From Clavelina lepadiformis (taxonomy: Eukaryota; Chordata; Ascidiacea; Aplousobranchia; Clavelinidae): 64,000 bases of DNA. This document shows positions 37,892 to 45,137 of this stretch, piece after piece. The stretch's first letter is position 1, and the number at the start of each line of letters is the position of its first letter. A program made the translations under genes and the position numbers. Location: positions 16,618,501 to 16,682,500 of the forward strand of contig NC_135243.1 of the NCBI RefSeq assembly GCF_947623445.1. Direction: 5' to 3'. The notes under the pieces were generated by a model. That model saw only the letters and a list, made by a program, of their open reading frames with translations, had not been told where the DNA came from and did not search any database.

Positions 37892-38496
37892 GGGTAAGAT
37901 GTACCAAACGCACCGATTAGGCTATAGCGGCTATGCTGCTGCCAATTCTTAATTACTCACTGGTCTACAAAAAAAATTTTTTTATGCTTTTTACAAAAAG
38001 AGGACTTATTCTGGTTAATTTTGGTGCGCTGATTCCAAAAATAACCTCAAATTTTTTCTATCACGTCAATGTTTTTCAAAAAATGCAATTCAATATTTTG
38101 ATGGTAAAGGAAATAATTACTATATACTATATAGCATAGAGCTTTACACAAGCCTACATCAATTTTGTAGAAGTACAGTAGAGATGCAAGATGACGCGTT
38201 GCAAGATGCTTGACCTACTAAAAGTCAAAACTAGCTCTACAAGAAAGAGTGTTTTAAAACTGGACGTTATTGCTTAAGCAGAGCGTATTGACTTATTCTT
38301 CATCCCCTTGAGGTGTCAATATAGGCGAATTTCTACTGTAAATAGATCATGCCTAATTATGTGAAGTAGCTTACATATATAGGTGAATCTTTATTTTATA
38401 TTTTTAGATAAGTTTTAAAGTATTCTGCAAACCTGTATTTATACAACCTGTTGCCAATGGCTAGTACTTCTGCTGGACGAAGAAGGTGCAAGCGAC

Positions 38497-39848
38497 GGTT
38501 TGGTGACACTTAATCACGCGACAATTAATCACGCGACGCTTAATCACCGACACATAATCACTAGGACATTTAATCACGCGACATTTTATCACGCGACACA
38601 TAATCACTAGGACATTTAATCACGCGACACATAATCACTAGGACATTTAATCACGCGACATTTAATCACACATTTACAATATTTTTTTACATTTACAATT
38701 TACAGCAATGTTATGCATGGGAAATGTAAGCAACTGCACGAAGATAGACTAAAATCTCGCTTGACAGATAACGGTCAGCTGTGTTTTGCACGCGCAGTTT
38801 CAGTGCCTTGTACAGCAGTGGGGATCATTGTTTTAATTGCATCAAGGATGCGATCGTACGTTGCTCGCGTTTTATTTTGAACGAGGCAGTAAACTGCTGC
38901 AGGAATAAGACCGGCCGGGAACAAGTTCAAAATGTACTGTGTATAGTTGAAAGAACAAAGACGGTACAACCTTGAACGTTCCATCAGCTAGCCACAATTT
39001 CGCTCTGGCCAAACCGTCTAGCAGATCCCTGCTGCCAAGAAGAATCAGACGATTGTTTCCAGGTCCAGAGTCGTGCAAAATCATGCGCTGGAATGTTTCT
39101 GGTATTGTGAAATTAGTATCCATCGGAGACTGTAGAGCGGCCGTACAGTGTGCAGTCAGCATATCGCGACGTTTTCTCTGCAAGGTCCGCTTCAAAGATT
39201 GCTTTTTTGGCAGCGCCATGAGTACACCTGGTTCCAAGTCTCTGCTTACAGACCCGATGACGTTGCTTGTACTGGCTGACAGTTCACCCATATTCACCTT
39301 CATTTGACTGATAGCCTGTCTTGCCAAAGCCGTGATAGTAAATTGTAAACCGGTCGTGATAGTAAATTGTAATAATTCATTCATTGGCATTGTTCCAGAG
39401 TTCCAAAATCGACGCTCTGACACAGTTTCAAGTAGCATTGTATTTTACGGTGTAACGTTTTGATGGTACTTTGGTCAAGAGCTTCGGTGACAATACAGTA
39501 GAATAATGTTAGATATTACATAGGTTATACTTTCGGACAATGTAACAATTAGACTTTATGAAGCTGGTGTTGATTTAAAGAAACAACGGAGTCAAAACAA
39601 TTGTCGGGGAGTTCTAAAAGAAAGACCAAGGAAGCCTTTGGCAGTCGCATCCAAGTGATTATGTGTCGCGTGATTAAATGTCGCGTGATTAAGTATCCAA
39701 GTCGCGTGATTAAATGTCCTAGTGATTATGTGTCGCGTGATTAAATGTCCTAGTGATTATGTGTCGCGTGACTAAATGTCCTAGTGATTATGTGTCGGTG
39801 ATTAAGCGTCGCGTGATTAAGTGTCACGTGATTAAGTGTCGGTACACC
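38497..39848 (-). mobile_element. MULE-type DNA transposon with tandem-repeat arms (9-bp duplication)
   Basis: The flanks are GCAAGCGAC at 38488-38496 and 39849-39857, an exact 9-bp duplication as usual for Mutator-like elements. The ends are GGTTTGGTGACACTTAATC and, reverse strand, GGTGTACCGACACTTAATC. Both arms (38497-38670 and 39654-39848) are arrays of short units such as TTAATCACGCGACA and CATAATCACTAGGA in opposite orientation. The element is 1352 bp and contains a broken transposase. Confidence 0.93.
38775..39438 (-). pseudogene. MULE transposase fragment, frameshifted and truncated
   Basis: From ATG 39436-39438 a frame of 188 codons runs to 38872. It has LWLADGTFKVVPSLFFQLYT, the start of the MULE domain with its first catalytic Asp. 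After FELVPG a one-base slip near 38910 moves the reading to the frame giving LIPAAVYCLVQNKTRATYDR and DAIKTMIP, the usual continuation. The remaining DDE core is absent, so the element could move only with help from another copy. A short internal duplication (LQFTITTGLQFTIT) is near 39345. Confidence 0.82.
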
Positions 39849-41238
39849 GCAAGCGACACCCAGATGTTTTCTGCTATATTTGTGGATGCTTTACTGCTCC
39901 AAAGCAAAAACAAAACATCACAGATTTTGTGAAAAAGGCTTACTTAGCATACTTCGGTATCAAACTAGGTGATCAAGACAAGTCCTGGGCACCTCACAAG
40001 GTGTGTAGGGCAGGTGTCGAAAATCTGAGACAATGGGCCAAGGGCAAACGAAAGAGTTTGAGCTTTGGCATTCCAATGATATGGAGAGAGCCAGCAAACC
40101 ATGTCAACGACTGTTATTTCTGCATTGTAAATACAGCTGGATTTAGCTCTAAAAATAAATCCAAAATCAGCTATCCTAATATTCCATCAGCCCTGAGACC
40201 TGTGCCTCATTCTGACAGCATCCCTGTACCAAAATTTACGTCTTTAACTCAATCATTAAGTGAGACAGATAGCTGCACATCAGATGACAGTTGTATTAAG
40301 ACTGATCACTATTCCTCATCTTCAGACCAAGAGAAGCTTCCGATATTAATCAAGCAGGGTTTTTTAAATGACTTAGTGCGTGATTTGGATTTGCCAAAAG
40401 CTTCTGCAGAGCTTTTAGGATCCAGGCTACATCACAACAATCTACTAGCTCCTGAAACCACATATTCATTCTACAGACGAAGAGAGGAAGGTTTGGTTCC
40501 GTACTTCAGCATGGAAGATGCCTTTGTGTTTTGTCATGACGTAGGTGGCCTCTTACATGCAATGGGTTGTGTGTACAATCCAAAGAAATGGCGTCTATTC
40601 ATAGATAGCTCCAAGGCTAGTTTAAAGTGTGTACTGTTGCACAATGGAAACAAGTATGCCTCTGTACCAATTGGTCATTCAGTACATCTCAAAGAAACGT
40701 ATGAAAATATGAAAATCTTAATAACTAAATGCAAATATTTTGAGCACAACTGGCTAATATGTGGTGACTTGAAAGTTTTGGGTATGCTACTTGGCCAACA
40801 AGGTGGCTACACTAAGTATCCATGCTTTTTATGTCTATGGGATAGTAGAGCTAAAACGGAACATTGGGAACAAGACCAATGGCCTGAGAGAAAAGAATTT
40901 ACTCCTGGAGGAAAAAACATCCTTAACCAAGCATTAGTAGACCCAAGCAAAGTATTACTACCACCTCTTCACATTAAGCTGGGGCTAATGAAGCAATATG
41001 TGAAAAGCCTGGATAAACATGGGGCATGTTTTGGGTATATTTGCCAAACATTTTCTGCCTTGAGCAATGAAAAGTTGAAAGCAGGAATATTTGATGGACC
41101 AAAAATAAGACAGCTAATGAAAGATAAGAAATTTATCAAAACCATGAATCAAGATGAAAAAGAAGGTTGGGCGGCTTTTAGCCAGGTTGTGAGCAACTTT
41201 CTGGGTAATACCAAATCACCTGATTACAAAGAACTTGT

Positions 41239-41660
41239 AATGAAAAGTGGTGTATGGTACCTTAACCTGTAAGGTTTGCCCACTTCACTACAAAGTCTGT
41301 TTACTTGTGTATATCTTAACAGTGAACTTTGATAGACTTCAGCAATAATAACACAGGAATGACAACTGTATAATCTGATTACATTGAAGCTTCTTTGAAC
41401 GAATACATTTAGATAGAACATTGGGACAGCTACATAATAAAGTCGACCACTTTCTAGGGTTGACTTAGTAGACTGTAACGCATTGAACAACTATGAATAA
41501 TAACACACACAATATAGGCATGCACGACATTTTTGTCACCACTTAATACGATAAGCAGAGAGTAATCGATTACGTAACGCAATGCTTTGCTTTGCCGATT
41601 TCCGTAAACAAGTATTCTATGCGGCATTCGATTTGCAAGCAATTTTATAATATCATCACA
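41239..41660. mobile_element. 422-bp insertion of unknown type (AACTTGT duplication)
   Basis: AACTTGT is at 41232-41238 and 41661-41667. Cutting out one copy plus 41239-41660 joins DYKELV to NRLLCSFQKLGC in frame. No inverted ends, poly(A) or coding sequence is visible. It is not an intron: there is no AG at the right edge. Confidence 0.7.
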
Positions 41661-42176
41661 AACTTGTCAACCGCTTGCTTTGCTCGTTTCAAAAACTTGG
41701 CTGCAACATGAGTGTAAAAGTGCACTTTCTGCATAGTCATTTGGACTACTTTCCAGAAAATTTAGGATCTACCAGTGAAGAACAAGGTGAACGTTTCCAC
41801 CAAGATATCAAAATCATGGAAAAAAGATATCAAGGTCGGTGGAATGTTAGTATGATGGCCGATTACTGTTGGTGTCTTATGAGAGATGAAGAAACATATA
41901 AACATTCTCGAAAGTCAAAAAAGAGAAAGCTTCTTCCATAAAATAATATTAATTTCAGTGTTGTGACCTTTATGCAGATATGTGCTGTTATTAATTTTTT
42001 TTGCTTTTTACGCCGAGGCATATTTACATATTGTCAATAATGCTATTTATTTGCTCTTACTGTCAAAATATTGAATTGTGTTTTGTGAAAAAAATTGACG
42101 TGATAGAAAAAATCTGATGTTATTTTTGGAATCAGCGCCGCCAAATTAACCAAAAACACTTGTTACTTGTAACTCA

Positions 42177-45137
42177 GCAAAATTGATGCAGACTGGTGAA
42201 ATTAAAGGTTCTTAAATAACTGGGCAAAGAACGCGAGTGTACTCTTTTCCATTGATTAATCATGCTGTTGTTAACTGACTTCTTTTCTGCTATTATGCGG
42301 TCATATGCTTTTCTTATTTTACCACCAGCCAACTCGTTTGGCTTTAAGTGGTATTTCTTTATAATTTCTATTATGCTTTCATAAAACGGAGAACGTTTTT
42401 GCGCGTGTGGCAGATTGTTTAATCTTATTACTCCCAGAATGTCTGTCATCGCAAGGCCAATTTGATATTCTACATAGCAGTCATTTGTAGAGAGAGGTTC
42501 GTTAAATATCCTTGCGCGGCAGTAATTCTTTATTGCTCTTACATACATAAGATCAGCGTGTATTTCGAAATTGGGGATTCTATGTCCTCCCTGTACCTTC
42601 GGTTGCTGCAGTTCGTTAATCGTTATATGAGTGTTGTTGCCAACAACATATCTTGTTATTTGGTCGTTGATTATTTTTATTTCACACCGTGAGGCGGGGT
42701 AGGTTTGGGCCGCGAAATTGGTTATTGGTAAAAGCTTAGCTTTTATGAGGGTCTCCTTGGCGTCGTAGGAGGCATACGCTTGATTAATGATTTTTATTTC
42801 ATCTTTAATTCTGTCAACGGTATTTTTCCAGTATTGTGTTACATTTATGTTACCTATTTTTGCGCCCAGCAGGTCAAGTGATTTAACATTCCATTCTATT
42901 TCCGTAAGGGGGTAGGGTGGTATGGGGTTGTTTATCGTTAAGCCTCGCGTTTTTTACTTGTTAAGATGTAGGCCTGATGCCTCAGCAAAATTTTGGATAA
43001 GCGCCAGGGTCGCATCGACTGAGTGATGGTCATTAAGTGTCAGCGTGATGTCGTCGGCGTAACAGACGGTTTTTATTTCTCGTCTTCCCTTTAATTGTAG
43101 ACCTTTAATTTCGTTTTTAGACTTGATTTTAGCAATTAGGGGCTCGGTTGCGATTAAAAAAAGATATAGGCTCAGAGGGTCCCCTTGTCTGATCCCACTT
43201 TTTAGTTTGAAAGCCGGCGATTGGAATTCCATTTACCATTACATTGATTGAAACATTGGTATACCTGTTTTTCACTATTTGTAAGAAACTACTTGGGAAA
43301 CACATTCGGTCTAATACTTTTAAAAGCCATCTGTGATCGATGGAATCAAAAGCCTTCTTAAAATCTAGTGAAACTAGGTAGCCCTTTTGTCCCTTACCTA
43401 GGTTGTGGTCATAGATATCTCTTAACAGCACCGTTGCGTCACCAATGTTCTTTCCTGCGGTGGCGAATTGGGTTTTGTCTATTAAAAACGGTATAAGCTC
43501 CTTTATTCTATTCGCCAGAATTTTGGTGTATATTTTGTAGTCTAAATTAAGAAGTGTTATGGGGCGGTAGTTATTTAAGTCAGCGTCGTCGCCTTTTTTA
43601 TGTATTAAGGTTATAACTCCTTTCTTGATTTCGCCTGGGATATTTTCCTTTTCAAACCAATACTGGAAAACTTCGCGAAGTTCTGTTTTAATAATTGGTA
43701 AGCATCGTTTGCAAAACTCTGCGCTGATACCGTCAGGTCCTGGCGATTTCCCATTGGCAAGAGATTTTACAACGTTATCTATTTCTTCGTCGTTTGGCGT
43801 GCGCCTTAGGATTTCTACATGTTCCGCATTTACAGCACAATCCACCTCTCTGAGAAAGGTGGTTTGTGTATGTGTGTTGGTTTCTTTCTCGTTGTACAGG
43901 TTCGAGTAAAAAGATCTTACCGTCTCTAGCATTTCATTGGGATTTGAGGTTGGCAAATGATACTTGCCATAAATTCGTTTATGAAGGTTTTCCTCTGTTG
44001 TTTTTTATAGTTTGCAAAAAACTCCCTCGATCCTATCTTACCGCAATCTTTTCTATTTTTGGACATTTTGCTTAAAATGTCCTGTTTCTTGTAGTTGCGC
44101 AGGTTACGTTTTGCTGTTAAATAATCTTCGTAAGTGCATTGGTTTGCATTCAAAAGGAGGACTGTTTGCTTATATTCATTGGTTAAAACTAATTCGGTTC
44201 GTTTTAATTTTGCATTTCGTTGCCTAGACCATTTTGAAATTAAATTCTTTAGTCTACTTTTTATTGCTATCCACCATGTGTTGGTGTCCTGATAAATAGT
44301 GGTTTTTAACGTTTTCCACTGCAGCCATTTAAGGGTTAGTTCATTCAAAAAAAGGTCGTTGCTGTAAATTTGGACATTGTTTTTCCATATTCCCCTCCCT
44401 CTTGGTATTGGGGCAGTAATATTTAAGGAGATGGTTACTTTTTGGTGGTCTGATAGGTGCGTCATTTCTTGCTCAAACTCTGTGGCTCTGATATTGCTAG
44501 ATAAATAAAACCTATCGAGGCGCGATTTTGTTTTACCATCTTGCCACGTGAAGTTTTTTGCGTTGCCATTTAACAATCTGAAATGGTCAGAGAGGCCGTG
44601 GATGTTGCATAGATTTTCCAATTCGGTTGGTTTTCTACGTGGTTTACTTGGGGGTTCTCTATCAATTACTGGATCGTCTACTACATTAAAATCACCTGCC
44701 AAAATAGTGGCTTCTTTTCCTACGATGTATTGGTGGACTGTCTCGAAAAAACGGTCGTTCTCTTTTGTGTCATGTGACCTTACGTTGGGCGCATATACAT
44801 TTACTATTTTAAAATCTTGATCATACATTGTTACAATTGCAGTGATTAGGCGGCCTTCAAGGTCTCTTTCGACAGTTTTAAAACTTATTGCGTAATGATT
44901 AAGCAAAATCGCAACGCCTTTAGAAGGTAGTTTCTTTTTTGGTGCGGAATTAAAAACAGCTCGATCTGTATGCCATTCGTTTTGCCATTTGGCTTCGTTA
45001 TGGGGTTCGCATTTAGTCTCTTGTAACAGAAATATGTGGGCCTTATCTTTCTTCAACGTGCTAAAAAGCTCTGCGCGTTTTGCCTTGTCATTTAACCGAT
45101 GGCAATTAAGAGTGCAAATTTTAAGGTAACAAGTCAT
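42177..45137 (-). pseudogene. LINE ORF2: endonuclease and reverse transcriptase, broken
   Basis: The endonuclease (45137 to about 43960) has LKICTLNCHRLNDKAKR, FLLQETKC, VNVYAPN, ILAGDFNVV, RLDRFYLSS and LSDHQKV, the usual APE metal and catalytic stretches. A frameshift near 43950 leads to the RT frame (43956-43129): NGKSPGPDGISAEF, LIHKKGDDADLNNYRPITLL and YLVSLDFKKAFDSIDHRWLL. A second slip near 43200 leads to SGIRQGDPLSLYLFLIATEP and CYADDITLTL, the YADD active site. An in-frame TAA follows at 42954-42956, after which the same frame stays open through YWKNTVDRIKDE and MYVRAIKNYCRA to the transposon at 42176. The three faults are light, so inactivation looks fairly recent. Confidence 0.9.

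Follow-up and report, generated by a model that had tools for sequence, protein, structure and literature searches.

A probable Chapaev3-type DNA transposon, broken by two younger insertions, in a LINE of the ascidian Clavelina lepadiformis

A pair of inverted repeats and a transposase-like gene lie close together in a 64,000-nucleotide stretch of the Clavelina lepadiformis genome (NC_135243.1, positions 16,618,501 to 16,682,500; hereafter the window, in whose numbering all positions are given). The locus raises the question of whether the repeats and the gene belong to one mobile element and, if so, to which kind of transposon that element should be assigned. A preliminary description, made from the letters of the window, had proposed a DNA transposon of an undescribed family, and we followed up its claims in the genome of the host.

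The left subterminal inverted arm (38009..38107, plus strand) and the right arm (42057..42155, minus strand) are each 99 nt long and are 88% complementary to each other. When an 89-bp arm was searched against the 209-Mb genome, at least 40 matches were found (40 scored out of 116 candidates), and several matches in this search form inverted pairs with a spacing of 1.3‒2.4 kb. Since the arm recurs in the host genome, partly as inverted pairs, the inverted arms are not due to chance, and the subterminal repeats of ~89 bp described earlier are borne out at a slightly greater length. The inverted repeats and the transposase-like gene are real and are parts of one mobile element. The limits of the element, previously placed at 37892 and 42176, had to be corrected to tips at 37958 and 42198, which lie outside the reported arms. 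On the basis of homology with L010, a relative found elsewhere in the genome, and with sister copies, the window copy spans 4,241 bp from tip to tip (37958..42198, plus strand). The 5' tip, CACTGGTCTACA (37958..37969, plus strand), begins with CACTGG, and an identical or similar tip is located beside TWA duplications in the sister copies. The 3' tip (42187..42198, minus strand) ends with GTG, reads CACCAGTCTGCA on the minus strand and was placed by homology with the sister copies.

About 1,790 of the 4,241 bp of the window copy are accounted for by two younger insertions, each counted with one of its two target repeats, and these insertions divide the transposase gene into three plus-strand pieces. 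The ATG and first codons are located at 38457..38496, where L010 starts alike, and are severed by a nested insertion from the continuation of the gene at 39849..41238, which contains the N-terminal cysteine domain, the first and second Asp of the putative catalytic triad (in FIDSS and CGDLK, respectively), C(2)C (CFLC), and LH. The 3' part of the gene, with H(4)H (HFLHSH) and the Glu (in SEEQGERFHQ), follows at 41661..41938. A transposase-like frame of 478 aa is open at 39836‒41272, its first codons being supplied by the nested insertion, and a C-terminal transposase piece is readable at 41669‒41941. Thus, the 478-aa frame and the C-terminal piece are real, whereas the intact 564-residue gene of the preliminary description spans the two younger insertions.

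The nested insertion (38497..39848, 1,352 bp, no strand assigned) is absent from L010. It is flanked by the 9-bp repeat GCAAGCGAC at 38488‒38496 and 39849‒39857, has minisatellite-like inverted ends built of TTAATCACGCGACA-type units and contains an open frame of its own on the minus strand (38872‒39444). We take this element to be MULE-like from its 9-bp target repeat and its frame; a Pfam transposase match to it was not found. It is matched by 68 pieces of the genome, several of which are 97‒99% identical across the whole query. The other insertion, a 422-bp repeat inside the gene (41239..41660, no strand assigned), is likewise absent from L010 and is flanked by the 7-bp sequence AACTTGT at 41232‒41238 and 41661‒41667. 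At least 51 genome pieces match this repeat (from 40 of 903 candidates scored), and inverted ends were not evident in it by eye. L010 measures 2,458 bp from tip to tip and is 97‒98% identical to the window copy without the two insertions; its own frame stops ahead of the E motif. Since both younger insertions interrupt the gene, the window copy is a broken, dead copy.

The LINE flank of the window copy is matched 14 more times in the genome, and in all 11 of these matches that were compared (L040‒L050) the LINE runs uninterrupted through the insertion place. This confirms that the segment is an insertion in the LINE. For the window copy, these LINE copies provide an empty site, albeit an imperfect one, and the clean insertion claimed earlier is wrong here: ~40 bp of unexplained sequence (37918..37957), absent from all 11 LINE copies compared, separates the LINE from the left tip, and the tips are not bordered by a 3-bp repeat. 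The 3-bp duplication regarded as probable in the preliminary description is accordingly missing from the window copy (flanks TAATTACT / AAATTAAA) but present in most of the sister copies in which both tips were located, as described below. The adjoining segment 42199‒45185 is a LINE remnant on the minus strand, in which reverse-transcriptase-like and endonuclease-like frames were recognized by eye.

Of 1,747 candidates flagged at first look in a protein search of the genome, 89 were scored and gave at least 91 matches. The family is common in this genome. We examined the ends at 54 places (L010‒L038, L051‒L074, and the window copy) and located both tips at 36 of them; the remaining 18, in which a tip was not located, were left out. 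In 25 pairs we chose the tips by eye from the hits to a CAC-like pattern; in the other 11 pairs, which belong to the window copy's own subfamily, the tips were placed by homology. An exact 3-bp duplication, TTA or TAA, is present in 25 of the 36 pairs, a count that is partly circular, since the choice by eye could favor tips next to TWA. The full ATWAT target is found in 24 of these 25 TWA copies, with A outside the left tip or T outside the right tip in 49 of the 50 flanks. In all 25 copies, W is identical at the two ends, whereas 100,000 shuffles gave such agreement in 12.7 copies on average and in 23 at most. Four more pairs have 4-bp duplications (TAAT in L016, TTAT in L025, and ATAA in L038 and L057), and the length of the target stagger may therefore be variable, 4 bp in these copies against 3 bp in their relatives, in the same kind of target. 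Neither a 3-bp nor a 4-bp duplication was found in the other seven pairs (L010, L021, L026, L052, L069, L074, and the window copy), and L010, which likewise lacks a duplication, is the closest full-length relative of the window copy.

The 5' end carries CAC in all 36 pairs and the 3' end in 35 (L061 differs), the tips of 25 of these pairs having been selected by eye from CAC-like hits. Tips were not found in L071 and L072, the two most divergent intact relatives, and a direct search for the empty site of L032 returned just its own two flanks. The 23 elements measured from tip to tip are 2.27‒2.96 kb long, some of them with broken frames. Copies that are up to 99.7% identical occupy different sites, and from these near-identical copies we infer recent activity; the family has apparently been active recently. 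The proposal that a DNA transposon is present, its inverted ends and gene moving together, is supported. In L060, L064, L065, and L070, a near-identical outer flank (gaccaagaaagaacgatgaac) extends beyond the 3' tip, and on account of this shared flank, the copy in these four places was probably multiplied within a larger repeat.

For the alignment of the protein, we chose nine intact frames from the family, each a single open frame of 554‒571 aa. Asp264, Asp318, and Glu513 (L012 numbering) are invariant in all nine relatives, with a constant spacing of 53 residues between the two Asp residues and 194 residues from Asp to Glu. The DDE-like placement that had been suggested for FIDSS, CGDLK, and EEQGERF in the window is supported by this conservation. 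C(2)C (Cys337 and Cys340) and LH (in PPLHIKLG) are conserved in the nine relatives and also occur in the window frame. H(4)H is present in eight of the nine, L011 having a Tyr in place of the second His, and the C-terminal piece in the window reads VHFLHSH. The Pfam transposase models matched neither the window protein nor the nine relatives, and in one of the nine, L012, a weak hit below the threshold was obtained to an RNaseH-like domain (E 0.16). A PDB search by sequence returned no chain at E ≤ 10. The AlphaFold single-sequence models of the 469-aa window frame and the N-terminal 100 aa, with pLDDT values of 34.9 and 43.8, respectively, are too poor to assign an RNase H fold. No relative was detected in viral contigs (queries A2, L072, and L012), in prokaryote genomes (query A2), or in phage records (query L033), and a literature search for the protein's motif strings was without result.

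Judged from its sequences, the full-length form of the family is an element of ~2.4 kb that starts with CAC, ends with GTG, and carries subterminal inverted repeats of ~90 bp and a single putative transposase of ~565 residues. These features resemble those reported for the Chapaev elements by Zhang et al. (2014, PMC4079192), according to whom the elements invariably begin with CAC and end with GTG, and the superfamily is characterized by C(2)C, LH, and H(4)H. In the same text, target duplications are 3‒4 bp in Chapaev elements in general, and all Chapaev3 elements examined have TWA duplications, with insertion between A and T. Chapaev3 transposases are mostly single-exon in appearance, and Garfield_BM, a Chapaev3 element, is 2,289 bp long with a transposase of 556 aa (PMC4079192). 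With Chapaev3 as represented there by Merrow, Garfield, and Conan, the family in C. lepadiformis shares the CAC/GTG ends, TWA between A and T, the DDE residues, C(2)C, LH, and H(4)H, as well as the size, the single frame (in most of that group), and MITE-like deletion derivatives (PMC4079192). Since all of these published marks that we could test are present in the family, we file it as Chapaev3, and the DNA transposon in the window is very probably a dead copy of the Chapaev3 type (CMC group), a placement made from the published descriptions of the named members. The claim of an undescribed family or superfamily gives way to this assignment, since the ends, target, size, single frame, and motifs are published marks of Chapaev and Chapaev3 (PMC4079192). 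What had been taken for a new superfamily is thus moved into a named one and supplied with the correct ends and an ATWAT target rule, in which the stagger is 3 bp and occasionally 4 bp. Two differences remain visible: the 4-bp duplications in 4 of the 36 pairs depart from the TWA rule of Chapaev3, and the ZAD-like N-terminus of the family is unmentioned in the available text of PMC4079192.

We weighed several other identities against Chapaev3. The composite and broken state of the window copy would suit the capture of part of a host gene by the inverted repeats of some unrelated element. However, in seven kinds of copy (the window, L011, L013, L024, L027, L033, and L036 types) one and the same gene is enclosed by CAC tips that are bordered by TWA duplications, inverted arms were found in six of these seven kinds and were undetected in the L011 type, and the short derivatives contain pieces of the same gene. 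Host-gene capture is contradicted by the many full copies and was rejected, its probability being practically negligible. A TWA-type 3-bp duplication is also a feature of PIF/Harbinger, from which the family here differs in its CAC tips, in the presence of one visible gene rather than two and in the lack of a match to the DDE Pfam models; PIF/Harbinger was rejected on these grounds. A further candidate is CACTA/EnSpm itself or one of its TRC-type relatives in animals. A CACTG tip with a 3-bp duplication would fit CACTA, and the layout of the second Asp, CxxC, and LH recalls Tnp2. On the other hand, Transposase_21 (PF02992) matched neither the nine members (E ≤ 1) nor the protein of the window copy (E ≤ 10); the genome search for Transposase_21 was empty as well, but its control was silent too, so that this search is uninformative alone. 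The family shares CAC-type tips with CACTA and a CXXC motif with the TRC transposase (PMC1636069). The TRC elements described in that paper carry CCC tips, and 7 of 14 SmTRC1 copies have a 2-bp direct repeat, both unlike the tips and duplications found here. CACTA and TRC were rejected in view of the unmatched Transposase_21 and of the CCC tips and 2-bp repeats of TRC (PMC1636069), and we regard either as highly improbable.

An undescribed superfamily, which would have arrived at the ends and target of Chapaev3 by convergence or through a deep common origin within CMC, is very unlikely in our assessment. The absence of Pfam transposase matches speaks for it, as does the fact that the likeness to Chapaev3 is drawn from descriptions of named members, whereas the agreement with several published marks (PMC4079192) in the CAC/GTG ends, TWA and its flanking A and T, element size, the single frame, and the motifs C(2)C, LH, and H(4)H argues against it.

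Apart from its assignment to Chapaev3, the family has an N-terminal cysteine domain that weakly matches Pfam zf-AD (ZAD, PF07776) in seven of the nine members, the best match (E 0.00023, 21.7 bits) being below the cut-off of 28; the window copy's own N-terminus was unmatched. Other zinc families also match the N-terminus weakly, FYVE in three of the nine members (best E 0.011) and BIR in two (best E 0.012). Run over the whole genome, zf-AD returned 11 matches at E ≤ 1, all of them under the cut-off. Ten of them are in this family, namely nine N-termini (L080‒L088) and the L038 copy (C8:7727845), which are mutually related and thus not independent, and the top match, L079 (E 0.002), lies outside the family. 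In L038, the ZAD-like CxxC-x40-CxxC domain (L038:1480‒1701) resembles the arthropod zf-AD. A PDB chain for the N-terminal cysteine domain was not found by sequence. In arthropods, ZAD is the defining domain of the large ZAD zinc-finger family, and THAP and BED are regarded as domesticated transposon domains. The N-terminal domain could conceivably be homologous to ZAD, in which case ZAD, too, would have been domesticated from a transposon, although we consider this rather unlikely. If true, the link would offer an origin for a transcription-factor domain that ranks among the largest of insects. No paper proposing a link between ZAD and this type of transposase was found in our literature searches on ZAD, which covered passages of PMC10547256.

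The copies in the genome comprise defined ends, a gene between them, duplications, many insertion sites, and deletion derivatives. In the mechanism proposed here for the putative cut-and-paste chemistry, the N-terminal cysteine domain (CxxC-x40-CxxC) would bind the ends together with the subterminal repeats. The D-D-E catalytic domain, whose fold is presumed and whose C(2)C, LH, and H(4)H would be zinc-binding residues, would cut at the CAC tips, and the cut ends would be joined to the ATWAT target with a stagger of 3 bp, sometimes 4 bp. The transposase would presumably also mobilize short derivatives in trans.

Eight such short derivatives (L051‒L054 and L056‒L059), of ~1.46‒1.64 kb, retain both ends and are located at different sites, as would be expected of elements mobilized in trans. 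The 3' part of the gene is kept in them and much of the middle is missing, and they include a stretch of ~180‒370 bp without a match to L010. L055 is without the 3' tip. Stop-to-stop frames of 266‒292 aa, which cover parts of the catalytic region, are present in L051, L053, L054, L055, L056, L057, and L058, and the truncated frames of the short derivatives might represent truncated transposases of the repressor type. Upstream of the element in the window, an open frame of 797 aa (30519‒32912) was observed, which we take to resemble animal HID1.
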